A stretch of DNA of 15,993 nucleotides from NCBI GenBank assembly GCA_031255615.1, contig JAIRSD010000070.1, forward strand, positions 1-15,993. The letters run 5' to 3'. The notes beneath the pieces were generated by a model. That model made no database searches and was not told where the DNA came from. It saw only the letters and a list, made by a program, of their open reading frames with translations. Shown here in pieces: positions 660-15,993 of the stretch (positions within the stretch are counted from its first letter, which is position 1; every line of letters begins with the position of its first letter). The position numbers and the translations under genes are program-made. This stretch comes from Treponema sp. (GTDB lineage: Bacteria; Spirochaetota; Spirochaetia; Treponematales; Breznakiellaceae).

Positions 660-798
660 AGGCATCCTCCCGCAGAGGCCGTTTTTAAGCGGTTGCCGTT
701 CAGAATGTGCGGCGCTGCACAACCCCCTAAGGCGTTCCCCAAAACCGGCCGGCTTGCGAACGGCCCCCATATCGCCCCGGAGGAGGCAAGCAGGCAGG

Positions 799-2175: not shown

Positions 2176-2193
2176 AAGGTTTCCCCCGCCGGT

Positions 2194-2202
2194 ATTGTAC
2201 CA
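2194..2202 (-). promoter_or_regulatory. Candidate extended -10 promoter of the FAD oxidoreductase gene
   Basis: The minus strand reads TGGTACAAT, an extended -10 (TGn plus TACAAT, 5 of 6 consensus), about 19 nt before the ATG at 2175. No recognisable -35 lies 16-18 nt upstream, as is usual for extended -10 promoters. Prediction by eye only. Confidence 0.45.
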
Positions 2203-2257
2203 CAGTTTTCCCGCCCGCCGGATACTATGTATGACAACAAAGAACAGCGGCGCTCAG

Positions 2258-2296
2258 TTGAGAAAATTCCGCATATCAAGTGAATGTTGGGCGCGT
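2258..2296 (-). repeat. Copy C: diverged tail of the three-hairpin dispersed element
   Basis: On the minus strand this 39-nt stretch (CGCGCCCAACATTCACT, then TTTTCTCAA at the end) matches the tail of copy B (15099-15137) at about 30 of 39 positions without gaps. The conserved 68-nt core seen in copies A and B is not recognisable next to it, so this is either a truncated copy or a related element that shares only the tail. It lies in the rpoB-FAD gene gap. Confidence 0.55.
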
Positions 2297-2351
2297 TTTG
2301 GTTCGGCCTCCCCCGCCGGCGCATCCATGCCGTCGGCCTAAAAACAGCAAG

Positions 2352-2375
2352 GGCCGCCGGAAAAAAGCGGCGGCC
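2352..2375 (-). terminator. Possible terminator of the rpoB operon
   Basis: A perfect 8-bp GC stem (GGCCGCCG with CGGCGGCC) closes an 8-nt loop, about 95-115 nt after the rpoB stop. On the minus strand a run of five T follows the stem after about ten bases (CTTGCTGTTTTTAGG). The distance from stem to T run is longer than in a classical intrinsic terminator, so the call is moderate. Confidence 0.5.
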
Positions 2376-2444
2376 GTCATTGCGAAACCGATGGGAATCA
2401 CGCGATCCAGCGGCTGGGTTTTGGGAAAGACAATACCCCTTCGA

Positions 2445-2461
2445 CCCGGCCAAAGGCCGGG
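2445..2461 (-). terminator. Hairpin immediately after the rpoB stop
   Basis: CCCGGCC and GGCCGGG form a perfect 7-bp stem with a 3-nt loop, starting 7 nt past the rpoB stop codon. No T tract follows on the minus strand, so it may act as a 3'-end stabiliser or processing site rather than as an intrinsic terminator. Confidence 0.45.
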
Positions 2462-2468
2462 CCCTGGG

Positions 2469-5400
2469 TTAAAAGTTGCTCCCGCTCTTGGTAATAAGTT
2501 CCTCATCCCTTTCCGTCAAGGGAATCTGTTTTCCCTTGGCGTCGTAAATGGTCAGGTCCAGGGCCAGTCCCCGGAGTTCCTGGACCAATACGTTGAAGGA
2601 TTCGGGAATCCCCGCGGTAGTGGAGGGCTCCCCTTTGACGATGGCCTCATAAATCTTGGAACGGCCGGTCATATCATCGGATTTGATGGTCAACAGTTCC
2701 TGCAAGGTGTTGGCCGCGCCGTAGGCCTCCAGAGCCCAGACTTCCATTTCCCCCAACCGCTGGCCGCCGAATTGGGCCTTGCCTCCCAGGGGCTGCTGGG
2801 TGACCAAGGAATAGGGGCCCGTAGAACGGGCATGCATCTTATCGTCAACCAGGTGGTGAAGTTTCAGGAAGTAGATAACCCCGCAGAAGATGGGATTCAC
2901 AAAACTTTCCCCCGTGCGGCCGTCATACAGGGTCGTCTTACTGGTAACGGGGAGTCCCGCCTCCCTGAGCTTCTCCTCAATTTGCCCGGTTGAGGGGGAC
3001 TGGAATACCGGCGCGGAGTACCATTCGTCCAGGGTAGAACCGGCCCACCCAAGCTCCGTCTCCAAAAGTTGGCCGATGTTCATCCGGGAAGGCACTCCCA
3101 GGGGGGTAAGGCACAGATCCAGGGGGGTGCCGTCTTCCATGTAGGGCATGTCTTCCTCCGGGAGAATCCGGGCCACCACCCCTTTGTTGCCGTGGCGGCC
3201 GGCCATCTTATCCCCCTCCCTCAGTTTCCGCTTGGTGGCGATAAGGACCTTTACCACCTCATCTACCCCGGGGTTAAGATCGTCTCCGGCGCTGCGTTTA
3301 AGCCGCTGAATATCAATGATCGTACCTTCCACCCCGTGGGGCACCCGGAGGGAGGAATCCCGAACCTCCTTGGCCTTCTCTCCAAAGATCGAGTTCAGGA
3401 GCTTGAATTCCGGGGTTGTTTCGGTCTCGCTCTTGGGAGTCACCTTGCCGACCAGGATGTCCCCGGAACGGACCTTGGCCCCCACCATGATGATCCCTTC
3501 ACTATCCAGGTTATCGAGACTCTTTTCCGAGGTATTGGGAATATCGTGGGTAATCTTTTCCGGCCCCAGTTTGGTTTCCCGCACCTCGGTAAGAAATTCC
3601 TTGATATGGATGGAGGTAAACATATCCTCCTTCACCACCCGCTCGGAGATAAGGATAGAATCTTCATAGTTGTAGCCGTTCCAGGGCATAAAGCCCACCA
3701 GGATATTCCGGCCCAAAGCCAATTCCCCTTTCCGGGTGGCGGGACCGTCGGCAATCACCTGACCGCGGGTTATTCTTTCCCCAACGTTGACAATGGGCCG
3801 TTGGTTGTAACAGGTATCCTGGTTGGTCCGCTGGTATTTCACCAGCCGGTACATATCCAAACCTTCCCCGTTGGTCTCGGGGATGGGGCCCTCGCTATTT
3901 TCCGGTTCAACGACAATTTCCTGGGAAGTAACCCGACGAACCACCCCGCCGCGCCGGGCCTTTACCAGGACCCCTGAATCGTAGGCGCATTTTCCTTCCA
4001 TCCCGGTCCCCACCCTGGGAGCCTCGGGAAACACCAGGGGAACCGCCTGACGCTGCATATTGGAACCCATAAGGGCCCGGTTGGCGTCATCGTGTTCAAG
4101 GAAGGGAATAAGAGAGGCGGAAACAGAGATGATCTGCTTGGGGGACACGTCCATGTACTGGATTTCCTGGGGGGAACGGGTTGTGTAATCCCCCTGGCGG
4201 CGGCAGGAGACCTGCTCGTCCGCAAAGGAACCGTTGTCGTTCAATTTTGCGGAAGCCTGGGCGATGTAGTAGCGGTCCTCGTCCATGGCGGAAAGGTATT
4301 CAACTTCCTCCGCCGCCCTGCCGTCCACCACCTTGCGGTAAGGGGTTTCCAAGAAGCCGTATTCGTTCACCCGTGTATAATTCGCCAGGGATACGATAAG
4401 GCCGATATTCGGCCCCTCCGGGGTCTCGATGGGACACATGCGGCCGTAATGGGTGTAATGGACATCCCGGACTTCAAAACCCGCCCGTTCACGGGAAAGA
4501 CCGCCGGGCCCCAGGGCGTTGAGTCTCCGCTTGTGGGTCAGCTCCGCCAGGGGATTCACCTGATCCATGAACTGGGAAAGCTGGCTGGAACCGAAGAATT
4601 CCTTGATCGCCGCCACCACCGGCTTAATCGAAACAAGGTCCTGGGGCTTAATGGTATCGGTCTCCTTGAGACTCATCCGTTCCTTGGCGATCCGTTCCAT
4701 GCGGCTAAAGGCGGTCTTCATGGAATTTGCCATCAGCTCGCCCACGGAACGGACCCGGCGGTTCCCCAAGTGGTCTATATCGTCAATATTTTCATCCCCC
4801 ACATAGACCTTGATGAGGAATTTCATGGTGGCGATAATATCCTGTTTGGTAAGGGTAAATTCCTCCAGGGGAACCTTATAGTCAAATTTTTTGTTAAGTT
4901 TGTAACGCCCCACCTTGCCTAAATCGTAACGGCGGCTGGTAAAGAACATCCCCAAAAGATCCTTCCCCGCCGCTTCCACGGTAATGGATTCTCCGGGCAT
5001 AAGCACCGAATACACCGTCGAAAGGGCGTCCTCCCTGGACGGTTCATCCCGGCTGGGGTCTTCCTTAACAAATTTGATCTCCTCCCGCTCAAAGCAGTTG
5101 AGGAGCATGTCGGAATTAAGGGAGGATTCTGCATCAAAGTCGATCACCTCCACTTCCGCAACGCCGTTAGCCAACAGTTCGTCAACGTTGTGGGGGTGGA
5201 GTTTTTCTCCGGCCCGGTAGAGCTTCTTCTTCTCTTCGTCCTTCTTTGCCGAAGCCTCCTCCGGATCTTCGGCTGCGGAGATCCATACGGCGGAGGCGAG
5301 AATCCGTCCGGAGAACCGCTCCCTCGTCTCCCGGTCATCCTTTACTTCCAGGGTCTCCGTCGTATAGAAGGCCTGGATAATGTCTTCCCGGCTTTCGTAA

Positions 5401-6020
5401 CCCAGGGCCCGAAGGAATATGGTCCCTAGGATCCGCTTTTTCCGGTCGATCTTGGCGTAGATAAGCTCTCTTTTCTGGTCGATTTCGAATTCCAGCCAAC
5501 TGCCCCGGTAGGGGATGATCCGGGATGAGTAGATACCCTTTTCATGGCTGAAAATGACTCCCGGGGAACGGTGAATCTGGGAAACCACCACCCGCTCCGC
5601 GCCGTTGATGATAAAGGTCCCCCGCTCGGTCATAATGGGGATATCCCCCATGTAAATGTCTTTTTGGCGGATTTCACCGGTCTGGGTAAAGATCAAATTT
5701 ACCCGGGCCTTAAGGGACACCGCATAGGTCAGGCCCTTCTGTTTACAATCCTGTTCGGAGAATTTGATATTATCCTCATCCAGCATGTAATAGTCATAAG
5801 CCAGAACCATATCTCCATTGGGGCTTTCGATGGGAAAGGTGGTCCGGAACACCTCCTCCAGACCCTGCGGAGCCGGTTTATTGCCCGCCCGTAAAATTTC
5901 CCGCTGGAGGAAACGTTCATAGGACCCAAGCTGGATGCCGATCAGATCCGGCAATTCCATCACATCCTGAATTTCCTTACCAATATAAGTCCGACTCCCA
6001 TCCGCTTTTCCTTCCATCAT
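2469..6020 (-). CDS. rpoB: DNA-directed RNA polymerase subunit beta
   Basis: Full-length RpoB of 1183 residues from ATG at 6020. This start was preferred over an in-frame GTG at 6065 because GGGGGA lies 5-8 nt before the ATG-ATG pair, while the GTG has no site. The subunit forms half of the RNA polymerase active-site cleft. Landmarks are [10 protein letters not shown] at 478-487, THKRR at 495-499, ALGPGG, the [17 protein letters not shown] block, [13 protein letters not shown] and [12 protein letters not shown] with catalytic lysines, and the C-terminal [20 protein letters not shown] block that contacts beta-prime. Residue 501, equivalent to E. coli Ser531, is Asn (codon 4520-4518); Asp516 and His526 equivalents are conserved. 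The length fits a Treponema RpoB. It is last in the block, 174 nt after rplL with a hairpin between. rpoC does not follow, which is unusual. Confidence 0.98.
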
Positions 6021-6141
6021 TTGTTCCCCCTGTCCGAACAAGCCCGGTCCTGCCTCACGAATCACAAAAGGGGCCGGTTATACACCGAAACCCCGCCCAT
6101 GATGGTGAGAAGAATAGGTCCCCCTAAGGGGCGTTGAAAGC

Positions 6142-6166
6142 ATGCCCGTCCGGGAAGAACGGGCAT
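6142..6166 (-). terminator. Hairpin in the rplL-rpoB gap, possible attenuator or processing site
   Basis: ATGCCCGT pairs with ACGGGCAT (8 bp) around a 9-nt loop, about 30 nt after the rplL stop. No T run follows on the minus strand. In E. coli a partial terminator and an RNase III site lie in the same gap, lowering rpoB relative to rplL; the position here is equivalent, but the function is inferred. Confidence 0.5.
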
Positions 6167-6194
6167 ACCCTTAACTTCATTATTCTGTCGAGTC

Positions 6195-6581
6195 TTACTG
6201 AATATCAACGGTACCGCCCGCGGCAGTGATCGATTCCTTGATTTTGTCGGCTTCTTCTTTCGAAACATTCTCCTTAAGAGGCTTGGGAGCGCCCTCGACC
6301 AAATCCTTGGCTTCCTTAAGGCCAAGTCCCGTAACGGCCCGGACTTCCTTGATAACCGCAATCTTTTTGGTGTCATCGTAGGCCTTAAGAACGACGTTAA
6401 ACTCGGTCTTTTCCTCCACCGCCTCGGGGGCCGCACCGCCCGCGGGGGCTCCCATCGCTACCGCCACCGGCGCGGCGGCGGATACACCGAACTTCTCTTC
6501 CAGGGCCTTAACCAATTCGGAAACTTCCAGAACGGTCATGGATGAAATCGCCTCGATAATCTCTTCTTTTGTGGCTGCCAT
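6195..6581 (-). CDS. rplL: 50S ribosomal protein L7/L12
   Basis: 128 residues, the usual length. It has the N-terminal dimerisation helices (about residues 1-33), an Ala/Gly/Pro-rich hinge (about 35-55) and the C-terminal factor-binding domain with [20 protein letters not shown] at about 75-95 and a final GTVDIQ-type end. Four copies or more form the ribosomal stalk on L10 and recruit translation GTPases. The start ATG at 6581 has AAGGAG about 8 nt upstream. It lies between rplJ, after a hairpin-rich 139-nt gap, and rpoB. The strong site and the hairpins on both sides would suit the known need for several L7/L12 per ribosome, but this regulation is inferred. Confidence 0.98.
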
Positions 6582-6606
6582 CTTAGCTTCTCCTTACTGG
6601 GTAATA

Positions 6607-6692
6607 GCGCCCCACAGGGGGCGCGGAGGCCGGTCGAAAGAAACCGGCCCTATATAATCCAACAGGACAGCAGCTTCGGACCCCTCGGTCCG
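6607..6692 (-). promoter_or_regulatory. Three consecutive hairpins in the rplJ-rplL gap
   Basis: Three perfect GC-rich inverted repeats lie end to end between rplJ and rplL: 6607-6624 (GCGCCCC/GGGGCGC, 4-nt loop), 6628-6649 (GGCCGGT/ACCGGCC, 8-nt loop) and 6677-6692 (CGGACC/GGTCCG, 4-nt loop). None is followed by a T run. They could be processing sites, stabilisers or barriers that set the rplL to rplJ ratio. Confidence 0.5.
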
Positions 6693-6720
6693 GGAAGCCT
6701 GAAGGATCAATATACGTTAC

Positions 6721-7260
6721 TTAGGCGGTTTTTTGATCCCCCACCGCCTTGATGCAGCGCACCAGCCGGGCGGGAATATCGTTGAGGGCCCCCGCCAAAT
6801 TCCGGGCCGGGCCATTTATCACCGACATAAACATGGAAATAAGTTCCAGCCTGCCGGGAAGTTTCGAAAAGGCGGCGGTTTCCTGGGCGGAATACACCGA
6901 ATCGCCGATAAGGGCCCCCTTAATCCGCAGGGCCGGGGCTTCCTGGGTAAAATTCAGGAGAATCCTGGCAACCTCGTTGGAATCCTTGGGGGCAATCGCC
7001 ACCGCCGTGGGCCCTATCAGATAATCCGCCACCTGGGGGGGGGCGGAAAGCTGTTCAAAGGCAATCCGGGCAAAATTGTTCTTGACAACCTTGTACAGAA
7101 CATCTTTACCCCGCAGTTGTTTCCGCAGGTTGGTTATCTGCTCCACCGTAAGGCCCCGGTAATCGGTAAAAATAAAATCCCTGGACCCGCTCAGGGCCCC
7201 TTTAATTTCCTCGATGGCCTTGGTTTTGCTTTCCTGAATCCTCTTCGCTACAATCGCCAC
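6721..7260 (-). CDS. rplJ: 50S ribosomal protein L10
   Basis: 179 residues from a GTG start at 7260, with GAGGAG about 6 nt upstream. The N-terminal domain (AIVAKRIQ..., then FTDYRGLTVEQITNLRKQLR at about 31-50, KVVKNNFARIA at about 57-67) binds 23S rRNA with L11; the C-terminal helix carries L7/L12 dimers. The length is typical. It follows rplA after 60 nt. A tract of nine C (minus strand) at 7035-7043 lies within the codons for S-A-P-P-Q, a homopolymer prone to slippage inside an essential gene. In many bacteria L10 with L7/L12 represses its own mRNA through a leader; the 60-nt gap here shows no obvious such structure. Confidence 0.98.
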   Translation of the reverse strand: MAIVAKRIQESKTKAIEEIKGALSGSRDFIFTDYRGLTVEQITNLRKQLRGKDVLYKVVKNNFARIAFEQLSAPPQVADYLIGPTAVAIAPKDSNEVARILLNFTQEAPALRIKGALIGDSVYSAQETAAFSKLPGRLELISMFMSVINGPARNLAGALNDIPARLVRCIKAVGDQKTA

Positions 7261-7320
7261 GTTAATCTCCTCTTATGGATCTACGGACACCCGCAAATTC
7301 CGAAACTAAGAAACCGGGAG

Positions 7321-8001
7321 TTATTCCTCGTCTTTGATCGAAACCCAGACTCCGGGCCCCATGGTAGAAGCCACCGAAACGGTCTGGATGAACTCACCCT
7401 TGGCATCGGCGGGACGTTTACGCTTTATTTCGGTAACAACGGTCTTTACATTTTCCGCCAGCTTTTCATTCTCCATTGAGACCTTTCCCACCGCCAAATG
7501 CACCACCCCGGTCTTGTCGGTCCGGAATTCAATGCGGCCCTTTTTCAGCTCCGCCAGGGCGCCCTTGATATCAAAGGTGACGGTACCGGCCTTGGGATTG
7601 GGCATAAGCCCCTTACGGCCCAGGACCATACCAAGTTTACCCACATCCTTCATCATATCCGGGGTAGCCACCGCCACATCGAATTCGGTCCAGCCGCCCT
7701 TTATTTTTTCGATCAGATCGTCGGCTCCCACAAAGGTCGCCCCCGCGTCCTGAGCTTCTTTTTCCTTTTCGGGCTTGCAAAAGACCAGGATCTTCTTTTC
7801 GCCCCGGAACTGGTGGGGAAGCACCATCGTGTCCCGAACGGACTGGCTCTTTTTAAGGGTCAATTTGACAGAAAGATCCACGGTTTCGTCAAATTTAGCA
7901 TAGGCCATATTCTTTAATAGATTCAGGGCCTCTTGAATATCGTAGGACGCGGCAGAATCATACTTTTTAATGTTTTCCTGGTATCTTTTCCCACGGTTCA
8001 T
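7321..8001 (-). CDS. rplA: 50S ribosomal protein L1
   Basis: 226 residues, the family length. Characteristic stretches are [15 protein letters not shown] at the N-terminus, [20 protein letters not shown] (about 38-57), [11 protein letters not shown] (about 129-139) and [19 protein letters not shown] near the C-terminal RNA-binding part. L1 forms the mobile stalk at the E site of the 50S subunit and in many bacteria represses translation of its own L11-L1 mRNA. Its ATG overlaps the rplK stop by 4 nt (ATGA), so the two genes are almost certainly translationally coupled. rplJ follows after 60 nt. Confidence 0.98.
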
Positions 8002-8429
8002 CTTTCTACCTCCACACCCATGGACCGGGCCGTACCGGCGATAATCCGCATGGCGGCTTCGGTATCATTGGCGGAAAGATCCGCCATCTTCAGTTTGGCA
8101 ATTTCTTCGAGTTTTACCTTGGGAAGTTTGCCCACCTTGGTCCGGTGGGATTCCGGGGAACCCTTTTCCAGTTCAATGGCCTTCTTGATAAGCACCGCCG
8201 CGGGGGGGGTCTTCAGGATAAAGGTAAATGTCTTATCCTGGTAAACGGTGATGACCACCGGGATAATAAGACCCGCCTCCATACCCTTGGTCCGGTCGTT
8301 GAACTGCTGGACAAACTGGGGGGCGCTGACTCCGTGGGGGCCGAGGGCGGGGCCTACGGGGGGGGCCGGCGTAGCCTTGCCCGCGGGGCACTGTAGTTTG
8401 ATGAGGGCGGCAATTTTCTTCTTTGCCAT
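7998..8429 (-). CDS. rplK: 50S ribosomal protein L11
   Basis: 143 residues. The N-terminal domain contains [30 protein letters not shown] sequence (residues 10 onward) with the proline-rich face that contacts the GTPase-associated centre; the C-terminal domain contains KPPA-type residues and a [13 protein letters not shown] end that bind 23S rRNA. L11 is also needed for RelA-type stringent signalling in bacteria that have it. The ATG at 8429 has AAGGAG about 7 nt upstream. The gene overlaps rplA by 4 nt and follows nusG after 111 nt. Two tracts of eight C on the coding strand (8212-8219 and 8358-8365) are GC-bias homopolymers. Confidence 0.98.
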
Positions 8430-8469
8430 GTTTTTCTCCTTTGTGGTGCTGCCGTGGCAAGCGGCTAAC

Positions 8470-8532
8470 GGGGCGCAGCCCCTCCCACTTCTCTAAATTC
8501 GAGACTGTTCCAAAACCGCCAGGGTTTTGAAA
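8470..8532 (-). promoter_or_regulatory. Two hairpins in the nusG-rplK gap (possible rplK leader)
   Basis: A 10-bp stem with one G-T pair at 8508-8532 (TTTCAAAACC/GGTTTTGGAA, 5-nt loop) begins 9 nt after the nusG stop, and a small GGGGC/GCCCC hairpin lies at 8470-8482. The larger one is AT-rich and strong enough to form in RNA. It could be a processing site or part of an L1 feedback site ahead of rplK-rplA; neither role can be decided from the sequence. Confidence 0.45.
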
Positions 8533-8540
8533 CCAGGCCG

Positions 8541-9104
8541 CTATAACTTTTCTACCTGCAAAAGGTCAACTTCCACCGGGGTATTACGGCCGAAGATGCC
8601 GACCATAACTTTAAGCCTGCTCTTTTCCTGGTTCACCTCTTCGATGGTTCCGGTGAAAGATTCGAAGGGACCGTCAATAATTTTAACCTGCTCTCCCGGA
8701 GAAAAACTCTGCCGCACCCGGGCCGGACGCTCGCCTTTGATGTCGCCGGATTTTTGCAGCATGTTCCGCACTTCGTCCGCGGGCAGGGGCTGGGGCTTCG
8801 CGTCCCCCAGGGTCCCCACAAAACCGTGGACTCCCTGTATCTTTTTTATCTTGGAACAATTAGATTTCCATGTTATCGGGACATCGGGGAGATCCATTTC
8901 CAGGAATATATAGCCCGAGTAGGTCTTGCGGAGCCTCTCCCGCCTCTTTCCGCCCTGGGTATCTACCACCACCTCGACAGGTATCTTGACATCAAGGACG
9001 ACCTCTTTATCAAGATCGCCGTTCTTGATCATCATGCGGATAATTTTCTCTATTTTGTTCTCCCATCCGGTGGACGTTTGAACCGCATACCAGCCCGAAG
9101 CCAT
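8541..9104 (-). CDS. nusG: Transcription termination/antitermination factor NusG
   Basis: 187 residues. The N-terminal NGN domain starts with GWYAVQTSTGWENKIEKII (about 4-22) and contains the YSGYIFLEMDL strand (about 62-72) that packs on RNA polymerase; a linker leads to the C-terminal KOW domain with FSPGEQVKIIDGPFESFTGTIEEV (about 133-156), which binds Rho or ribosomal protein S10. The start ATG at 9104 is preceded by AAGGA. It follows secE after 21 nt, so they are in one transcript. The position secE-nusG-rplK is the standard bacterial order. Confidence 0.97.
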   Translation of the reverse strand: MASGWYAVQTSTGWENKIEKIIRMMIKNGDLDKEVVLDVKIPVEVVVDTQGGKRRERLRKTYSGYIFLEMDLPDVPITWKSNCSKIKKIQGVHGFVGTLGDAKPQPLPADEVRNMLQKSGDIKGERPARVRQSFSPGEQVKIIDGPFESFTGTIEEVNQEKSRLKVMVGIFGRNTPVEVDLLQVEKL

Positions 9105-9125
9105 GATTTTCCTTACGATACTCGC

Positions 9126-9305
9126 CTAAAATATCATCCTGATGCCCAAAAGGAGCAGCACGTCTACGAGGCCCAGGGCAAGGGCGATAATGACGGTGGA
9201 AACAATAACCACCTTGACGGAACTGACCACATCATCCCGGCTGGGCCATACGACCTTTCGCAGCTCCGCATAAGACTCTTTGACAAACTGAACAAGTTTG
9301 TTCAT
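9126..9305 (-). CDS. secE: Preprotein translocase subunit SecE
   Basis: A 59-residue protein, MNKLVQFVKESYAELRKV at the start, then VWPSRDDV (about residues 19-26), the conserved amphipathic hinge of SecE, and one C-terminal transmembrane helix (about 31-57). This is the short single-helix form that clamps SecY in the membrane. ATG at 9305 with AAGGTGAT upstream; stop TAG at 9126-9128. It was found by direct reading of the tRNA-Trp to nusG interval, and the neighbours leave little doubt. Confidence 0.96.
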   Translation of the reverse strand: MNKLVQFVKESYAELRKVVWPSRDDVVSSVKVVIVSTVIIALALGLVDVLLLLGIRMIF

Positions 9306-9370
9306 ATTCCATCACCTTCTATTTTTTCTCGCACCCTCCCGGGTATCCCTAGCCTTTTTAAATTTATTCC

Positions 9371-9443
<73 letters not shown>

Positions 9444-9513
9444 TTATTCACTGGTTTATCCGCGTCCCGGCCCGGATCCGACCGGACCCGTTGCGGAAGA
9501 CCGTCGAAGCCTT

Positions 9514-9687
9514 TTACTTTATCTTGGTCTCCTTATGAAGGGTGTGCTTCCGGTCGAAGGGACAATATTTTTTCAGCTCCAGCTTTTCCTGCGTGTTCCG
9601 CCGGTTCTTTGCGGTGGTGTAGTTCCGCCGTTTACATTCACTGCATTGAAGCGCCACCAGTTCCACAATCTGTTTCTTGCTCGCCAT
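9514..9687 (-). CDS. rpmG: 50S ribosomal protein L33
   Basis: 57 residues from ATG at 9687. A longer in-frame start at 9732 was rejected because its extra 15 residues are not family-like and would cover intergenic hairpins; a G-rich ribosome site lies just before 9687. Family features are CSEC at 15-18, RNYTTAKN at 21-28 and the C-terminal [17 protein letters not shown]. The zinc-binding form of L33 has four cysteines; here Cys15, Cys18 and Cys42 are present but the fourth site is Asp45, so metal binding may use Asp45 or His48, or be lost. L33 sits near the E site of the 50S subunit. It is flanked by tRNA-Thr and tRNA-Trp. Confidence 0.96.
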
Positions 9688-9722
9688 ATCCCCACCCCCC
9701 TTCCGGCCAAAGGACCGGAGAC

Positions 9723-9741
9723 AATCCCCCACGGGGGGATT
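9723..9741 (-). other. Hairpin upstream of rpmG
   Basis: AATCCCCC and GGGGGATT pair perfectly (8 bp) around a 3-nt loop, 36 nt before the rpmG ATG. No T run follows. A second, imperfect CCGG-based hairpin lies between it and the start codon. Likely RNA-processing or stability structures. Confidence 0.45.
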
Positions 9742-9762
9742 CCTGCCAGAGAAAACTTTAAC

Positions 9763-9785
9763 ATGGAAAGACGGCGTCTTTCCAT
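9763..9785 (-). terminator. Hairpin directly after tRNA-Thr
   Basis: A 23-nt near-perfect palindrome (ATGGAAAGAC/GTCTTTCCAT, 10 bp, 3-nt loop) starts 1 nt after the tRNA-Thr discriminator base. On the minus strand it is followed by GTTAAAGTTTTCTC, a weak T tract. It may be a 3'-processing signal for the tRNA or a partial terminator before rpmG. Confidence 0.5.
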
Positions 9786-9786
9786 C

Positions 9787-9859
9787 AGCCCTCGATCAGA
9801 ATCGAACTGATGACCTTATCCTTACCATGGATATGCTCTGCCAACTGAGCTACAAGGGC
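9787..9859 (-). tRNA. tRNA-Thr (anticodon GGT)
   Basis: 73 nt on the minus strand: acceptor GCCCTTG/CGAGGGC, D arm GCTC/GAGC, anticodon stem TATCC/GGATA with loop ATGGTAA, variable loop AGGTC, T arm ATCAG-TTCGATT-CTGAT, discriminator T. CCA is not encoded. Reads ACC and ACU codons. First gene of the block, about 35 nt after the predicted transcription start. Confidence 0.95.
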
Positions 9860-9900
9860 GACTTGCCCGGCCCATACAGTACCGGACGATTAGTCCAAGA

Positions 9901-9929
9901 AACATATCAAGATTTTTAAAAAAGATCAA
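9901..9929 (-). promoter_or_regulatory. Candidate sigma-70 promoter of the tRNA-Thr to rpoB block
   Basis: On the minus strand, TTGATC (-35) is separated by 17 nt, mostly A/T, from TATGTT (-10); each matches the consensus at 4 of 6 positions. The predicted start near 9894 is about 35 nt before tRNA-Thr. It is the only AT-rich stretch in a very GC-rich gap, which supports it. Confidence 0.55.
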
Positions 9930-10250
9930 GGCCGTTCCAGGCAAAGCCGGCGAATCTGGGTTCAGGCCGACAAACGGGGCGGTTGGGGCCGCGTTCTGCG
10001 GGCCAAGAAGGGCGGGGCGCGGCGGCAGGGAGGCCGGCGGGGGGGGGCGGCTGGGTCCGTTCCAGGAGACGGCGCGCGGAGCGCGGCAATGCCGAAGGCG
10101 CGAAACAGCAGGGAGGCTGTTTCGCGCCCGCGCAAGGGATAGAAGCGGAATTCCCCGCCCCCGGAGGGGGCGGGGAATTGGAGCGGATAGCCCGGTCCCC
10201 GGCGCGGAGCGCCGGGGATGCGCCCTATATGCTCTACATATAAGCAATAC
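9930..10250. other. GC-rich gap between the two minus-strand blocks, no gene
   Basis: About 320 bp with no supportable coding region. The right half is the dispersed element copy A. The left half is extremely GC-rich, has a run of nine G at 10039-10047 and a small hairpin with a GGA loop near 10068-10085. Open frames here on both strands reflect GC bias and the repeat. Confidence 0.7.
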
Positions 10251-10256
10251 TCAGCG
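10097..10256 (+). repeat. Copy A of a three-hairpin dispersed element
   Basis: In order on the plus strand: hairpin 1 at 10097-10128 (13-bp perfect stem, 6-nt loop AGGGAG); a 68-nt core at 10129-10196 that contains hairpin 2 at 10149-10179 (14-bp perfect stem AATTCCCCGCCCCC, loop GGA) with flanks GCAAGGGATAGAAGCGG and GGAGCGGATAGCCCGGT; hairpin 3 at 10197-10217 (9-bp perfect stem, loop GGA); then a tail starting ATGCGCCCTATATGCTCT. Copy B (15099-15260, minus) has the same order and junctions. The tail end is less certain and overlaps the TlpA stop codon. The element runs antisense to the TlpA gene. Its identity is not known to me. Confidence 0.8.
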
Positions 10257-10811
10257 TTTGCCAAGCCGGGCGTTGAGCAGGGCGGCGATATCCCGGTTGA
10301 GCTCCCGCTGGTTGTAGGCCCCGACCTTTACGGACAAGATGACGCCCTCCCCGTCGATGAGGAAGGTCTGGGGGATGGCGTAGATCCGGTAGAGTTGCGA
10401 GATTTTCCCGGTCTGGTCCATGACTATGTTGAGGTTGAGGTTTTTGTTCCGCAAGAAAGCGGAGACTTCCTGGTTTGTCTCGGCGCAGTTTACCGCCAGG
10501 ACGGCCATATCCGGGGATTTCGCGTCGGTAAGCTGGGAAATGAGGGGCAGTTCCCTGATGCAGGGGCCGCACCAGGTGGCCCAAAAGTGGAGGGCCACTG
10601 GTTTTCCCCGGTAATCCGACAGTTTCGCGATTCCGCCGCCGGGGAGGGCGAAGGTAAAATCGGGGGCCCGGCTGCCTACCGCCGGGTTGTCCGCGGCGGC
10701 GGGGAGGGGCCAGAGCAGAAGGCCGGCGGCGACAAGGGCGGCAATGGCGGCAAGGGGGCTCCGCAGGCGTCTTGCGCGCCCGCCGGGGGTCCGTGTATAG
10801 GACTGGTTCAT
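10251..10811 (-). CDS. TlpA/ResA-type membrane-anchored or exported thioredoxin
   Basis: 186 residues from ATG at 10811, preceded by AAAGGAG at a good distance. The N-terminus has a basic stretch then a hydrophobic helix (about residues 17-40, ending LPAAA), so it is a signal peptide or membrane anchor. The thioredoxin fold follows: GSRAPDFTF at 46-54, LHFWATWCGPC at 74-84 with the redox pair Cys81-Cys84, and the cis-proline Pro147 in YAIPQTF. An extra Cys lies at 109. It would reduce disulfides or a partner outside the cytoplasmic membrane. It is the third gene after the CXXC protein and the 4Fe-4S protein, 34 nt downstream, which suggests these supply it with electrons in the way CcdA does elsewhere. 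The substrate is not identifiable. Confidence 0.93.
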   Translation of the reverse strand: MNQSYTRTPGGRARRLRSPLAAIAALVAAGLLLWPLPAAADNPAVGSRAPDFTFALPGGGIAKLSDYRGKPVALHFWATWCGPCIRELPLISQLTDAKSPDMAVLAVNCAETNQEVSAFLRNKNLNLNIVMDQTGKISQLYRIYAIPQTFLIDGEGVILSVKVGAYNQRELNRDIAALLNARLGKR

Positions 10812-10845
10812 AGAGTGTTTCTCCTTTCATTTGTTTCTATGTGTT

Positions 10846-11766
10846 TCATTTGCCTGTTTGTTTCGTTTGTTTTTCCTTCCGGCTGCTCCGGCTGCCTCGA
10901 TTTCCGGCTGCTCCCTGCTCCGGTTCCCGGTTCCAGTTCCGGCGGAGGGCCCGGGCCGGGCAGGTTCCGGCGCATGCGCCGCAGCGGATGCACTCGCGGT
11001 CGAGGGCGCGTTGGGTGTCCATCCTGCAAAGGGCCGCGCATGCGCCGCAATGCGTACAACGTTCTTCCCGTATCTCCATGCCGAACAGGGCGAGGCGGTT
11101 AAAAAGGCCGTAGAGGGCTCCCAGGGGGCAGAGAAAGCGGCAGAAGGGCCGGAATATGAACAGCGCCGCCGTAATCGCGGCGATCAGCAGGGCCAGTTTG
11201 AGGAAAAAAAGGCCCCCGACGAGTTTCCGGAGGGCGGCATCAAGGAAGACCAGGGGAAGGCCCGCCTCTAGGGTTCCCGCGGGGCAGAGAAATTTGCAAA
11301 AAACGGGGTCCCCGTAGCCGTAAACAAAGAAGGCCCCCAGGGGCAAGGCCAGGACCGGCAGGGCCAGGACGCCGTATTTCAGCAGCGACAGCTTTCGGGT
11401 GAGGCGGTTTTTGGGCAGTTTGGGGGAGGGGATCCGGTAGAGGAGTTCCTGGATAAGACCGAAGGGGCAGAGGAAGCCGCAGACTCCCCGGCCAAGGGTC
11501 AAGCCGAAGAGCAAAAGCAGGCCGGTTACCAAGAAGGGGAAGCGGCCCTGGGCCAGGGAGTTTTGCAGGGCCCCCAAGGGGCAGGAAGCGACGGCTCCGG
11601 GGCAGGAATAGCAGTTAAGGCCGGGGACGCAGAACCTTTTGAGGGGGCTGCGGGACACGGTTCCCCCGATAAAGCCCTGAAGATCCGCGTTGTATACAAG
11701 CATGGACAGGAACTGGATATGCCGTCTGGCTAATCGGGTCCGGAAAAGGGTCAATCCTCTAGCCAA
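10846..11766 (-). CDS. Polytopic membrane 4Fe-4S protein, NapH/NosR-like
   Basis: 306 residues, starting with TTG at 11766, overlapping the end of the upstream gene by 8 nt. N-terminal CVPGLNCYSCPGAVASCPLGAL (Cys46, 52, 55, 62) is typical of this family. Transmembrane segments lie near 76-95, 128-150 and 186-206, and each is linked to a CxxxCP motif: Cys96/100, Cys157/161 and Cys209/213. The C-terminus carries two ferredoxin clusters, CTHCGACAALC (237-247) and CIRCGACAGTC (259-269), probably on the cytoplasmic side, then an Arg/Lys-rich tail (about 275-306). Such proteins move electrons from cytoplasmic carriers into or across the membrane. Gene order CXXC protein, 4Fe-4S protein, TlpA suggests a route to an exported thioredoxin. 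The exact start is uncertain; an alternative ATG is at residue 22. Confidence 0.88.
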   Translation of the reverse strand: MARGLTLFRTRLARRHIQFLSMLVYNADLQGFIGGTVSRSPLKRFCVPGLNCYSCPGAVASCPLGALQNSLAQGRFPFLVTGLLLLFGLTLGRGVCGFLCPFGLIQELLYRIPSPKLPKNRLTRKLSLLKYGVLALPVLALPLGAFFVYGYGDPVFCKFLCPAGTLEAGLPLVFLDAALRKLVGGLFFLKLALLIAAITAALFIFRPFCRFLCPLGALYGLFNRLALFGMEIREERCTHCGACAALCRMDTQRALDRECIRCGACAGTCPARALRRNWNREPEQGAAGNRGSRSSRKEKQTKQTGK

Positions 11767-11902
11767 TCCCCATACACTCCAGACAGATAAAGACCGCCTT
11801 CTTAAAAACCGACTCCCCGTCGCCCAGCACGATGCCGGCAGCGGTAAGGGCGATCCCCAGGAACAGGATAAAAAAAGAAAGGGCTTTGGGGCTGGGGAGC
11901 AC
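11759..11902 (-). CDS. Small CXXC membrane protein, CD1871A-like
   Basis: 47 residues from GTG at 11902, with AAGGGG 9 nt upstream. One transmembrane helix (about residues 8-27), then GDGESVFKKAVFICLECMGIG, with the pair Cys40-Cys43. Small proteins ending in xCLECIGIG are annotated in firmicutes as CD1871A-family CXXC proteins and, as I recall, are found beside 4Fe-4S and TlpA-like genes. A longer ATG start at 11929 is possible, but the promoter -10 at 11937-11942 would then leave almost no leader, so GTG was chosen. Its stop overlaps the TTG start of the 4Fe-4S gene by 8 nt, implying translational coupling. Role is unknown; a thiol relay at the membrane face is an inference. Confidence 0.82.
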   Translation of the reverse strand: MLPSPKALSFFILFLGIALTAAGIVLGDGESVFKKAVFICLECMGIG

Positions 11903-11936
11903 CTTTGCAGGCCCCTTTATAGGATCCATAGATATA

Positions 11937-11965
11937 ATTATAACGAAAAAAAGGGGCAATACTAA
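11937..11965 (-). promoter_or_regulatory. Candidate promoter of the CXXC/4Fe-4S/TlpA cassette
   Basis: A perfect TATAAT at 11942-11937 on the minus strand, with TTAGTA (3 of 6) 17 nt upstream at 11965-11960. The predicted start near 11930 gives about 28 nt of leader to the GTG at 11902, enough for the AAGGGG site. Confidence 0.55.
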
Positions 11966-12307
11966 CGCATAGGCGATATATCCGCGATATAATGGGGAAC
12001 GATAAGGGGGGAACGGGCGGCGGTTTTCAGGCCGGCCCCTGCCGGCCCCGCTCCGGGGCGTGGTTTCCCCGGCGGGGAGCAGCGCCGGCGCGGAGCGGCC
12101 CCGGGGCCGGATGCGCGGCCCCGGCAGCCTGCGGCTGCCTCGATAGCCCGACGGCCCGGTTTTTTGCGGCCCGCCGCAGGTAGACAGTTGCGGGCGGATA
12201 GTTGCAGGCTGACAGCCGCAGAAAACGCGCCGAAAAGGGACTCGGCCTGCGGAGTCGTCTTTCCAAGTCGTCTCAACATTGAGAATTTGCCGGGAACAGG
12301 AGTAATC
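11966..12307. other. Divergent intergenic region, GC-rich, hairpins, no gene
   Basis: About 340 bp between the divergent cassettes. From roughly 12020 to 12190 it is nearly all G/C with many inverted repeats, among them a 12-nt perfect palindrome GGCCCCGGGGCC near 12100 and GCAGCC/GGCTGC with a TGC loop near 12125-12139. A fragment resembling the dispersed element lies at 12142-12178. The MFS promoter could not be identified. Confidence 0.6.
12142..12178 (+). repeat. Copy D: possible degraded fragment of the dispersed element
   Basis: It contains GATAGCCCG, then after an 8-nt insertion CCCGGTTTTTTGCGGC and GCCGCA. The same pieces in the same order span the core end and hairpin 3 of copy B. 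The length is short and the region is GC-biased, so chance similarity is possible. Confidence 0.35.
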
Positions 12308-13648
12308 ATGGGGAAAGGACAGATTGAACGGGGCGGTTTTCGGAAGTACATGGGGCTTACCTTTCTCATTGGATTCGGTTTTTTCACGATGGGGCTCATG
12401 GACCCTCTGTATGATACCTACGTGCCCATCTACCTGAGGCGTTTTCTTTCGTCCAACGCCGCGGTGGGGGGAATTATGACTCTGGATAATATTCTTCAAC
12501 TGTTTCTTATCCCGGTCATCTCTGTGTGGAGCGACCGGACCCGGACCCGGCTGGGGCGGCGCATGCCTTTTATCCTGGTGGAGCTGCCTCTGGCGGCGCT
12601 TTTTTTCAGCCTGATACCGCCGGGGGCTTCCTGGTCCTTGTTTGCCCTTTTGGGGATCCTTTTTTGTTTTAACCTCTTCAAGACCTCGGTCCGGGGTCCG
12701 GTGGTAGCCCTGATGCCGGACACCATTCCCGGAGATTACCGTTCAGAGGCGAACGGGGTGATCAACATGATGGGGGGCATCGGCCTTATCGTAAGCACCC
12801 TGGTCCTGGCCCGGTTAATCGACAGCCCCTCCCCGCTGGGGGAATTTTTTGCCGGGGCCCTGCCTTTCAATATCGCGTCCCTGTGCATAATCGCCGCCGT
12901 ACTGGTTCTGCTGTTTTTTGTGCGGGAAAAACTGCCGGAGGGGGATGAAAAGGCGGAGGAGCGGATTCCGGTGTTTCGGTCGATCCGGCAAATTTTTAGC
13001 GGCGGGGCCCCGTCCGCGGAGGGAGGGGGAAGGGAAAACGGCGGAACCGGGGTGAAGGATACCAGCGTGGCGCGGATTCTCCTTTCCATTTTCTTCTGGT
13101 TTACCGCCTATGAGGGGGCGAAGCCTTTTTTGGGCCTGTTTTTGGTGGAATCCATGGGGGTTTCCGAGGGGAACGCGGCCCTGGCGCAGGGGGTGGCGGG
13201 GATTTCCAGCGTGATCATGGCGGTGCCCTGCGGTTACTTTGCCCACAGGATGGGGAGGAAGCGTTTCATCCGGTTAAGCCTTGTCTTCCTGACCGTCATA
13301 CTGGCCCTTATTCCCGTGTGCGGGTTCCTGGGAAACCGGGCGGGCCTTGGCCCCTCCGCAGCCCTGGGAATTTTCCTGGTTCTGATGTTCTTATACGGTG
13401 CGGTCTGGATTGGGGTTACGGTAAATTCCTTTCCCATGCTTTGGCAGATAGCCAGTTTTGGAAATATGGGCATCTATACCGGGATGTATTATACTTTCAG
13501 CCAGGGCGCCGCTATCTTAGCGCCCCCCATAACCGGACTGATCATCGATCTGGCCGGATTTTGGGGCATCTTTATTTTTGGAAGCCTGTGTATGCTGGCC
13601 GCGTGGTTCACCATGGGCGGGGTAAAGGCAGGGGAGCCGCAAAACTAG
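12308..13648 (+). CDS. MFS transporter of the SLC45/GPH sugar-porter type
   Basis: 446 residues from ATG at 12308; AGGAG lies 6 nt upstream. A longer frame opens at 12164 but its extra residues run through hairpin-rich DNA and are not transporter-like. Twelve hydrophobic segments can be traced, split by a charged central loop (about residues 205-250). [15 protein letters not shown] at 75-89, after helix 2, is the loop 2-3 signature of the SLC45/glycoside-pentoside-hexuronide porters; a related but weaker copy, HRMGRKRFI, follows helix 8. Substrates in this group are usually sugars or glycosides. It precedes deoD by 8 nt, so a nucleoside or pentose substrate is conceivable, but this is inference. 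Confidence 0.88.
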
Positions 13649-13656
13649 GAGGGATC

Positions 13657-14361
13657 ATGTCATTTCACATTGCCGCTAAACCCGGAGAAATCGCGGAGGC
13701 GGTTCTGCTGCCCGGCGATCCCCTGCGGGCGAAGTTTGTGGCGGAACAATTTTTGGAGCAGCCTTTTCTTTACACCGATGTACGGAACATCCTGGGCTAT
13801 ACGGGAACCTACAAGGGGAAGCGGATCTCCGTCCAGGGAACGGGAATGGGCATGCCGTCGATATCAATATATGTGAACGAACTGTTTAAGGACTACGGGG
13901 TCAAACGGGCTATCCGGATCGGCACCGCCGGAGGACTCCAGGAGGATCTTAAACTGCGGGATATGGTTATTGCCATGTCCGCCTGCACCAATTCGGGGAT
14001 CAACGATATTCGTTTTAGGGGGATGAGCTTTGCCCCCACCGCCAGCTTCAACCTGCTCAAGGCCGCCTACGAGACAGCCCAGGCCCGGGGATGGCAGCCC
14101 AAGGTGGGGGCCGTAATCTCCTCCGACACATTTTACAGCGACGACCCGGAGGAATGGAAACTCTGGGCCGGCTACGGAGTTCTGGCGGTGGAGATGGAAA
14201 CCGCGGAACTCTATACCCTGGCGGCCAAGTACGGCAGGGAGGCCTTGGCCCTGCTCACCATTTCCGACAGCTTCGTCTCCGGGGAGGAAGACAACCCCGC
14301 GGAACGGCAAAAATCCTATACCAGGATGATGGAAACCGCCCTTGAAGCGGCCCTGTCCTAA
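13657..14361 (+). CDS. deoD: Purine nucleoside phosphorylase, DeoD type
   Basis: 234 residues from ATG at 13657, with GGAGGG just upstream; a longer overlapping frame from 13318 lies inside the MFS gene and was rejected. It aligns closely with the E. coli enzyme: His4, PGDPLRAKF at 19-27 (Arg24 binds phosphate), GTGMGMPS at 61-68, IRIGTAGGL at 86-94, VEMETAELY at 178-186 (ribose binding) and Asp204 in TISDSF, the residue that protonates the purine. The enzyme splits purine (deoxy)ribonucleosides with phosphate into free base and (deoxy)ribose-1-phosphate, as a hexamer in the cytosol. It is the middle gene of an apparent operon with the MFS porter 8 nt before and the MgtC protein 12 nt after. 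Confidence 0.96.
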
Positions 14362-14373
14362 ACGGGAGAATCT

Positions 14374-15060
14374 GTGGCCGAATCTGTTTTAACCCCCACT
14401 ATCATTGTCGCGCGTCTTTGTTTGAGCTTTGGGGCCGGAGTCATCATTGGTTTTGAACGGGCGAGCAGACGGCAGGTGGCGGGAATGAGGACCCATGTCC
14501 TTATCTGCCTGGGGGCCACCCTGTTGATGATTCTTTCCATCTGGCTGCCCCAGGAATTCGCCCACCTGAAAAACGGGGACCCCGGCAGAATCGCCGCCCA
14601 GGTAGTTTCGGGGATTGGCTTTCTGGGGGCCGGCGCCATGATCAGACTGGGCAACAACATACGGGGCCTGACTACCGCCGCCTCCCTTTGGCTTATCGCC
14701 GCCGTGGGCATGACCATAGGGGCGGGACTGTATCTGGGGGCCGCGGTTGCCGAAGGCCTTACCCTGGTGGCCCTTTGGGGGCTTGGAAAATTCGAGGCCC
14801 GAATTTTTCCCGCCGAGCGAAACAAGACCCTGGAACTTGGATTTAAGAACGGGGAGCCGGACATCAACAAAGTATTGAGCACGATTAAATCCTTTGGGGT
14901 AAGAGTCCTGTCCATGAATATTGACCAGTCCTTCGACCAGAAGGGGGCGAAATTCAGACTCCTGGTTGGGTTTCCCAGCTCCATTGATATTCCCAGGCTG
15001 CTTAAGGCATTAAAATCCATCAAGGGCCTTGAGGAAGTGGGTCTGAAGGAAAAGTATTAA
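14374..15060 (+). CDS. MgtC/SapB-family membrane protein
   Basis: 228 residues from GTG at 14374, with GGGAGA 4-5 nt upstream, 12 nt after deoD. The N-terminal half has four to five hydrophobic segments with the family signature GFERASRRQVAGMRTHV (about 26-42), SGIGFLGAGAMI (about 88-99) and GLTTAASLW (about 107-115). A soluble ACT-like domain (about 145-228) follows, as in MgtC proteins of pathogens. The family is tied to growth in low magnesium and survival in hosts; Salmonella MgtC inhibits the F1Fo ATPase, but most bacterial members are uncharacterised. No magnesium-sensing leader is seen, since it is third in its operon. Its stop codon overlaps that of the transposase frame on the other strand (TTAA at 15057-15060). 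Confidence 0.92.
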   Translation: MAESVLTPTIIVARLCLSFGAGVIIGFERASRRQVAGMRTHVLICLGATLLMILSIWLPQEFAHLKNGDPGRIAAQVVSGIGFLGAGAMIRLGNNIRGLTTAASLWLIAAVGMTIGAGLYLGAAVAEGLTLVALWGLGKFEARIFPAERNKTLELGFKNGEPDINKVLSTIKSFGVRVLSMNIDQSFDQKGAKFRLLVGFPSSIDIPRLLKALKSIKGLEEVGLKEKY

Positions 15061-15993
15061 CCCCGGCGACGAAAGAAAAGACATTTATTTATTCGCCATT
15101 GAGAAAACACCGAATAGCGAGAGCATATTGGGCGCATTTTTTGCGGCGCAGCCGCAAAAAACCGGGCTATCCGCTCCAATTCCCCGCCCCCGGCGGGGGC
15201 GGGGAATTCCGCTTCTATCCCTTGCGCGGCCCGCAAAGGGCCTTCCTGCCCTTTGCGGGCTTGTAAGTTCTGCTCCCCCCGCAAAACCCAAGATACATTC
15301 GATACGCGGCGCTTTAACCGGGCATTGCCACGGGCGACGTTCCCGGTCCAGATGTTTAATTCGGCGTCAAACAGGTGCTTCCGGTCCGGCAGACTGAAAA
15401 TGTGCACCGTGCTTTTATGCTCAATCCCTACCCGGACGTCCACCTTTTCCCCTATATGGGCGATCATCTCTTTGCTGTAATATTCAAATCCGTCAAGGAT
15501 GATTCCGTTCTTTAGTACGGTTTTGGTATGCCGCAGGGTAAAAAGATACTTCGTTAAATGTTCCGGTATTTCCCGTTTGGGCCCCGCCTTCTCCTGCCAA
15601 ACTTCCATGGAAGTGCGCTCATCCATGCCCTGTCCGCTGTGATGCCATTCGTTGTTGCACCAGTCAAATAAATGCCCCAGCCGTTCTTCCATTTCCTCAA
15701 AGGCCGGTATTTCGGCAGCATCCTTTTTCTTAATGCCGTCTATGTTCCGGTGGTAGAGTTCCAACTCATCAGGACGGTCGGCCGTATTTGACCCGGTGTA
15801 GGTTATCTCAAACTTGTCAAACCGTTCATGCAGGGTCCCCCACAGCCGTTCTATGGGTTTTGATTGGCCGCGCCCCACCTGGACGAAGGACATCTTTACG
15901 CCGGCCTCGTTTAAAAGCCCCGCGTCCTGGTCCAGGGATTCGGGGTCTATCTTGGTCCGCTTCAATGTGATCGTGGAAATACTTTTCCCCCTT
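15057..15993 (-). CDS. Mu-type DDE transposase, C-terminal part, fused to repeat copy B
   Basis: Only the C-terminal part is in the window; the frame is open to the right edge, and the TTG at 15965 is not its real start. After the edge it reads through GKSISTITLKR, then GRGQSKPIERLWGTLHERFD, whose Glu in KPIER is the third catalytic residue of the integrase core. YTGSNTADRP and a C-terminal beta-barrel (VDVRVGIEHKSTVHIFSLP) are typical of Mu-like and related transposases. From the codon at about 15260 onward the frame is encoded by the dispersed element copy B: roughly the last 67 residues (ARKGQEGPL... to the stop) are repeat-derived. The natural C-terminus is therefore probably lost, and activity is doubtful. 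It converges on mgtC with overlapping stops. No terminal inverted repeat was seen. Confidence 0.85.
   Translation of the reverse strand, partial: RGKSISTITLKRTKIDPESLDQDAGLLNEAGVKMSFVQVGRGQSKPIERLWGTLHERFDKFEITYTGSNTADRPDELELYHRNIDGIKKKDAAEIPAFEEMEERLGHLFDWCNNEWHHSGQGMDERTSMEVWQEKAGPKREIPEHLTKYLFTLRHTKTVLKNGIILDGFEYYSKEMIAHIGEKVDVRVGIEHKSTVHIFSLPDRKHLFDAELNIWTGNVARGNARLKRRVSNVSWVLRGEQNLQARKGQEGPLRAAQGIEAEFPAPAGGGELERIARFFAAAPQKMRPICSRYSVFSQWRINKCLFFRRRG
15099..15260 (-). repeat. Copy B of the three-hairpin dispersed element
   Basis: On the minus strand: hairpin 1 at 15260-15229 (13-bp perfect stem, loop AGGAAG), core at 15228-15161 identical to copy A except the hairpin 2 loop, hairpin 2 at 15208-15178 (14-bp stem), hairpin 3 at 15160-15138 (10-bp perfect stem, loop TGC), and a 39-nt tail at 15137-15099. 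Stems 1 and 3 differ from copy A at six pairs each, all compensated. The element ends 38 nt from the mgtC stop and is read as coding sequence by the transposase frame. Confidence 0.85.

Follow-up and report, generated by a model that had tools for sequence, protein, structure and literature searches.

What are two copies of a short, hairpin-rich sequence whose stems differ at many base pairs and yet remain paired? The question arises from a 15,993-nucleotide stretch of DNA from Treponema sp. (GenBank assembly GCA_031255615.1, contig JAIRSD010000070.1, positions 1 to 15,993; the window, below, means this whole stretch). A sequence-only reading had described two such copies, A and B, as a dispersed structured element with compensated stems, and had offered structured non-coding RNAs and DNA hairpins resembling repetitive extragenic palindromes (REP) or miniature inverted-repeat transposable elements (MITE) as its two readings. 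Covariation of a helix, copy number and genomic context agree with this description and lean to the second reading, and with moderate confidence we interpret A and B as belonging to a REP/MITE-like DNA element, dispersed and non-coding, that acts as a folded single strand, which explains them better than a small RNA (sRNA) does. The core matches a known Rfam family, and the whole is a real, abundant, structured and modular repeat with the following parts.

10097–10128, plus strand: copy A, hairpin P0 (hairpin 1 of the sequence-only reading), 13 bp, loop AGGGAG; DNA and RNA folds
10130–10134, plus strand: copy A, P1 5′ arm GCGCA, pairing with 10219–10223 in the DNA fold; P1 covariation in 122 copies
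10136–10193, plus strand: copy A, P2, the Flavo-1 core; RF01705 at 38.7 bits, and fold
10196–10218, plus strand: copy A, P3 (hairpin 3 of the sequence-only reading), 10 bp; fold
10219–10223, plus strand: copy A, P1 3′ arm TGCGC; fold and P1 covariation
10224–10235, plus strand: copy A, tail CCTATATGCTCT, common to copy B
15229–15260, minus strand: copy B, P0, 13 bp, loop AGGAAG; fold
15223–15227, minus strand: copy B, P1 5′ arm GCGCA; fold
15164–15221, minus strand: copy B, P2, the Flavo-1 core with a 14-bp hairpin; RF01705 at 39.1 bits, and fold
15137–15161, minus strand: copy B, P3, 11 bp; fold
15132–15136, minus strand: copy B, P1 3′ arm TGCGC; fold
15120–15131, minus strand: copy B, tail CCAATATGCTCT; alignment with copy A

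Alignment and folding bore out a single layout for the two copies, with compensated stem differences; the elements extend over 10097–10235 (plus) and 15120–15260 (minus), so that the coordinates first given were correct overall and off by up to about 20 nt on the tail side. The cores of A and B differ only in two loop bases of hairpin 2. Hairpin 1 has 13 bp in both (GGCGCGAAACAGC and GCCCGCAAAGGGC, respectively), with six pairs that differ and all six compensated, and hairpin 3, 10 bp in A and 11 bp in B, differs in six of ten aligned pairs, again all compensated, as counted by hand on the aligned, folded sequences. In copy A, P2 has a base of GGG/CCC, TA/TA and GC/GC pairs with purine internal loops, followed by a 14-bp hairpin with its loop at 10163–10165. 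The tail said to begin ATGCGCCC is indeed shared but is partly structural, its TGCGC being the 3′ arm of a helix that the sequence-only reading had missed. This helix, P1, forms between the GCGCA before the core and the TGCGC after hairpin 3 and encloses hairpins 2 and 3, so that P1, P2 and P3 make a three-way junction. The pattern of the tail shared by A and B was present in no other of the 153 sequences compared.

Pairing in P1 was measured in 122 distinct copies, found by a core-only pattern in the window and in loci from the scans, picked without regard to P1 and with short-flank copies excluded. The five bases before the core paired perfectly with a downstream stretch in 108 of the 122, compared to 54 on average and 63 at most over 200 re-pairings. 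Where the arm was not GCGCA, 35 of 45 paired perfectly (500 random re-pairings: mean 4.6, maximum 10), and the variant arms seen included GCGTG/CACGC, GCGTT/AACGC, GCACA/TGTGC and GCATG/CATGC. This count is the unbiased one. The rows of alignment A2, of which L047:5036 is probably not a true copy, were selected for P1 pairing, which biases P1 counts made on it. Covariance model R1, covering the whole junction, was trained on A2, which contains A and B as well as many loci of the later search, and its scores of 91.7 and 83.8 bits for the window copies are therefore no test. In oral-treponeme-like genomes and Flavobacterium, R1 also found divergent relatives that were not in the training set and whose P1 and P2 helices covary (107 double-changed cells versus 32.7 in shuffles, over 43 distinct rows of alignment A3, which was fitted to the structure), as do the inner P2 pairs. 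P1 and the base of hairpin 2 have the strongest case for selection on structure. The conserved unit may be the three-way junction itself, with P1 enclosing the Flavo-1 helix P2 and the hairpin P3, and its junction segments would be kept as the part that a protein recognizes.

The sequence-only reading knew no named family for the element and had asked for a comparison with Rfam, which matched the core to Flavo-1 (RF01705). The matches cover the full model length at 38.7 bits for A and 39.1 for B (E of about 2e-5; gathering score 42). The Flavo-1 RNA goes back to Weinberg et al. 2010 (PMC2864571) and is listed in surveys among the most abundant sRNA families (PMC9029176). In the open PubMed Central papers searched, we found no description of the enclosing helix, the hairpin modules, the P0 subfamily, the high copy number in uncultured treponemes or the hairpin differences at a fixed site. 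No paper among the matches listed there presents Flavo-1 as a palindromic repeat by its title, and AGCGGATAGCC and GATAGAAGCGGA occurred only in papers unrelated by title.

Genome scans returned the many further copies that had been sought, with at least 120 stretches containing the element in Bacteroidota and in uncultured Treponema/Spirochaetaceae assemblies, the latter probably from termite guts, judging by the isolate names. Matches to RF01705 in eight genomes, with up to 150 candidates scored in each, numbered 80, 34, 0, 1, 131, 140, 150, and 86, and six of eight genomes with relatives had matches above the gathering score of 42. Samples of whole phyla (E up to 1e-4, with stricter filters) contained matches in 20 of 296 Spirochaetota and 43 of 296 Bacteroidota genomes and in none of 14 control genomes. 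More than one element was present in 10 of the 153 sequences, most of them 3–8 kb long. The core pattern is also present in two viral contigs; two other viral scans returned nothing. A phage origin was rejected, copy A having no match in 50,697 phage records, as was a plasmid origin, for which nine Rhodococcus plasmid records resembling hairpin 3 of copy A (10190–10224; six of the nine matches lie within about 60 nt of record ends) were judged to be chance, probably a likeness between GC-rich hairpins.

By a simple open-reading-frame (ORF) caller, 118 of 123 spirochaete copies lie outside long ORFs, compared to 153 of 366 random positions, and in Bacteroidota the numbers are 24 of 24 and 35 of 72. 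Among 70 spirochaete copies with both neighbors, gene orientation relative to the element was ++ in 25, −− in 23, −+ in 13 and +− in 9, a balance indicating neither the sense bias expected for mRNA elements nor the convergent bias expected for terminators. Taken with the P1 covariation and the high copy number, this intergenic and balanced placement suggests that one strand most likely folds into the junction structure when the DNA becomes single-stranded, with DNA as the putative acting molecule.

Rfam types RF01705 as sRNA, and on that account each copy would be transcribed, giving a three-way-junction RNA that binds a protein. Covarying helices and conserved purine-rich internal loops would suit such an RNA. 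So would the excess of G-T over A-C mismatches, 24 to 10, which points to the drawn strand; it comes from the P2 and P3 stems of 145 copies, with 2049 of 2128 pairs Watson–Crick and 45 of other kinds, as scored by a stem-pair finder that rewards Watson–Crick pairs and weights all mismatches alike. G-T pairs are, however, just ~ 1% of stem pairs, and sense and antisense placements are balanced. No upstream stretch common to all copies was seen by eye, although groups of copies within one genome share some, and so no common promoter is visible. A Flavobacterium psychrophilum transcriptome study gives a transcribed sRNA no clear support: it reports several 5′ transcribed regions that overlap Flavo-1 hits, yet the hits are sense or antisense without preference and many fall outside transcribed regions. 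An sRNA family is, on this evidence, a rather unlikely account.

Folding was compared for the two kinds of molecule. The folds of A and B are far more stable than those of shuffled sequences both as RNA (z of −6.8 and −4.9) and as single-stranded DNA (−8.6 and −6.3), with none of 200 shuffles as stable in each case. With DNA energies, the best fold of the element strand of both copies is P0 plus the three-way junction, while RNA energies give a different best fold for copy A. In a set of 108 copies selected for P1 pairing, the base of P2 formed in 95 as the DNA element strand, 60 as its DNA complement, 82 as the RNA element strand and 71 as the RNA complement, which favors the element strand.

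How the stems change was followed within one genome, G001, where a 15-bp P2 stem is common to 54 of the 58 copies (the four with unrelated stems were excluded) in which pairs 1–6 are invariant and pairs 7–10 occur in many forms. Departures from the consensus comprised 45 compensated Watson–Crick changes, 8 that were one-sided and 1 that was two-sided, to G-T; of the 45, 19, counted by hand, were of a transversion type, which has no route through a wobble pair. The two hairpins combine freely, with 11 P2 forms and 20 P3 strings (cut by script, some incomplete) in 24 combinations among 29 copies. The same modularity was seen at a fixed site beside one Flavobacterium gene, compared in 16 genomes with at least 80% protein identity. 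The element is present in 10 of these (L227, L228, L230, L231, L233, L236–L239, and L241) and at four loci found through the element itself, and absent in six (L229, L232, L234, L235, L240, and L242), with flanks that are not cleanly alignable. Between species, P2 or P3 differ wholesale, with at least four P2 and at least four P3 forms by eye, and P2 forms a and b are each paired with more than one P3 form; P1 is kept (one G-T in L228), as is the outer P2 base, and inner core pairs change in form b. Of 11 of these genomes, 6 contain the exact pattern of one P2 form at other places, though G379, whose copy at the site is a variant of that form, does not; 2 of the 11 contain the exact pattern of another form. 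Repeated insertion at the same spot is a conceivable alternative, but several copies have the flank next to P1 in common.

That compensation indicates selection on a folded RNA or single-stranded DNA, as first proposed, is one possible reading, but rewriting templated by the palindrome fits too, because whole hairpins differ at a fixed site and one-sided or wobble intermediates are few in one genome. Carried to its end, this would make compensation a mutational by-product, in which hairpin-templated repair or template switching copies one arm onto its partner and exchanges hairpins between copies, the fold being under little or no selection. The ratio of 45 compensated to 8 one-sided changes, many transversion-type, the whole-hairpin differences at one site and the free combination of P2 with P3 would all follow. 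P1 covaries as well, however, with arms that in A and B are separated by ~ 85–90 nt containing two hairpins, and both phyla have similar junction segments, if among copies picked by those very segments. We hold a by-product with little or no selection to be improbable. For the DNA element that we prefer, stems may be exchanged between copies or rewritten arm from arm, by which they would change yet remain paired; the differences in whole hairpins at a fixed site are observed, and the mechanism is proposed from them.

Several observations weigh against a mobile element that acts as single-stranded DNA. Neither the 153 sequences nor the Flavobacterium site yielded a clean empty site or an insertion polymorphism, and at the latter the element persists beside one gene across species, unlike an actively moving element. 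No transposase was linked to it, and none was seen by eye among the 14 largest neighbor families. The complement of copy A, folded with DNA energies, has three hairpins and no junction at almost the same energy, and the P2 base forms in 82 copies as RNA against 95 as DNA, so that the two molecules are not told apart by folding. In Bacteroidota, copies tend towards convergent neighbors (+− in 7 of 15 versus 3 of 27 random positions), which is possibly meaningful, and orientation follows GC skew weakly (69 of 114, p = 0.03; 16 of 23 in Bacteroidota, p = 0.09). The F. psychrophilum 5′ transcribed regions described above count on the same side, as does the lack of a match to the transposase family Y1_Tnp (E up to 1e-5) in the copy-rich but possibly incomplete genomes G006 and G008.

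Dispersal suggests that copies may be spread by an enzyme acting in trans. Clustering of 396 neighbor ORFs gave no family of mobile type among the 14 largest, viewed by eye. Y1_Tnp (PF01797), the family of REP-associated tyrosine transposases (RAYTs), was found in 7 of 13 genomes. R1, run on 15 of 24 Y1_Tnp loci (L182 is the same place as L175), detected a strong neighbor at L179, where the gene is a fragment cut by the contig end (G005), and a weak one at L178 (24.2 bits, in G037), and the element pattern was not found at eight loci of G007. The idea that the element is the REP of a RAYT was rejected, since apart from these two cases the Y1_Tnp genes examined are not flanked by it and the RAYT-like genes viewed in G002 and G003 are flanked by other hairpins. 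Neither copy has a GTAG or CGTC foot, the feet being GCGCA in P1 and GGCG/GCCC in P0. G007 also encodes seven similar, dispersed proteins of 152–174 aa with weak Y1_Tnp matches (L183, L186, L189, L191, L193, L195, and L196), with no clear HUH motif by eye and no element beside them by pattern. In Flavobacterium and Mucilaginibacter, RAYT-like genes at L185, L188, L190, L192, and L194 are flanked by other inverted repeats (at L185, for example, GCTCCGCAAA/TTTGCGGAGC), which are candidate atypical REPs; published work ascribes 'atypical secondary structures' to the Bacteroidetes RAYT subclass 2.6 (PMC6006769; PMC3733652).

Same-strand clusters of the element in some oral-treponeme-like genomes raised the further idea of attC-like sites, recombined by an integron-type tyrosine recombinase. 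Integron attC sites act as a folded single strand and keep their structure while the stem sequence varies, and folded single-strand sites with conserved feet would suit the element. The integron integrase model TIGR02249 was above its cut-off in 3 of 13 genomes (G004, G173, and G181) and not in G001, G002, G005, G006, G007, or G008, among which G001, G005, G006, G007, and G008 are copy-rich; weaker matches occurred in 13 of 13 genomes and also in 13 of 14 controls. The copies of G001 are of mixed orientation (32 forward, 26 reverse), and the clusters viewed, in G181 and G230, sit among ORFs that by eye are Rhs/YD-repeat-like. The distribution of the integrase and this setting led us to reject attC sites, which we consider very improbable. 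The divergent copies in these clusters (L153–L156 and L160), near repeated ORFs, seem to have been duplicated together with them.

Hairpin P0 marks a subfamily, including the window copies and some uncultured treponemes, in which a hairpin with an ANGGR loop stands directly before the junction. In 850 kb of spirochaete loci, mostly fetched because they contain an element, 28 hairpins had ANGGR-type loops and perfect stems of at least 11 bp, and 13 of these are stems within an element. Of the remaining 15, 13 end 0–2 nt before the P1 of an element as read from the list (10 by a strict script pattern), indicating that P0 belongs to a subfamily. P0-preceded elements occur in the window and four other genomes (G007, G383, G384, and G385); most copies in G007 lack P0, and other genomes have different hairpins or none at that position. 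In G001 (L197–L226), many element tails share a further stretch of ~ 60–100 nt, CCCAAATTTTGATTATCGAATTTAAG...GTTAGCCAACGCCC, and several other hairpin families lie on the upstream side, making the intergenic regions mosaics of hairpin repeats.

Within the window, two tRNAs were detected, and from the ORFs we take the genes to be rpoB and ribosomal protein, secE/nusG-like, TlpA-like, MFS transporter, nucleoside phosphorylase, and MgtC-like genes. Copy A, on the plus strand, has a tRNA on one side and the 3′ end of the TlpA-like gene on the other; copy B, on the minus strand, is enclosed by the 3′ ends of the MgtC-like gene and the transposase gene. Arms 10103–10196 and 15161–15254 form an inverted repeat of 94 nt with 88% complementarity. 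The transposase gene adjoins copy B at the right end of the window, and its open frame continues into the copy.

15261–15965, minus strand: MuA-like transposase fragment, C-terminal part (Mu-transpos_C, PF09299)

If members of RF01705 are DNA elements, their annotation as sRNA misleads, including in surveys of sRNA abundance. The element also offers natural experiments, with dozens of copies per genome whose stems are paired and different and one site at which sister species have different hairpins, and it allows one to ask whether stem covariation, the usual mark of a functional RNA, can be produced at the DNA level when hairpins are exchanged or one arm is copied from the other. More tentatively, and as a doubtful though possible extension, Flavo-1 might be no small RNA but a new kind of bacterial DNA repeat, in which a conserved single-strand three-way junction serves as a socket and hairpin modules are swapped between dispersed copies at fixed sites, with short parts of the stems diversifying as nearly always-paired barcodes, through an undescribed process of hairpin exchange or hairpin-templated copying.

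Among known systems, REPs and bacterial interspersed mosaic elements (BIMEs), with their RAYT (TnpA-REP), are likewise intergenic, high in copy number, and built of hairpins. They differ in that A and B have no GTAG/CGTC foot and that the Y1_Tnp genes examined are unflanked save for the G005 fragment and the weak case in G037. Integron attC sites share structure kept despite stem change and the single-strand action proposed here, whereas the element is dispersed, with no cassette arrays seen and no integrase above cut-off in the copy-rich treponeme genomes tested. The mobile double-hairpin elements of mitochondria, compared by description only, are organellar, but they too are short dispersed hairpin units described as mobile. 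Closest is Flavo-1 itself, which has the same P2 with GC/GC, TA/TA, and GGG/CCC pairs and purine internal loops, and a Bacteroidetes range. The Rfam consensus structure contains no P1, P3, or P0, the window copies score just below its gathering score, and Rfam types the family as sRNA, whereas the present data lean to DNA.

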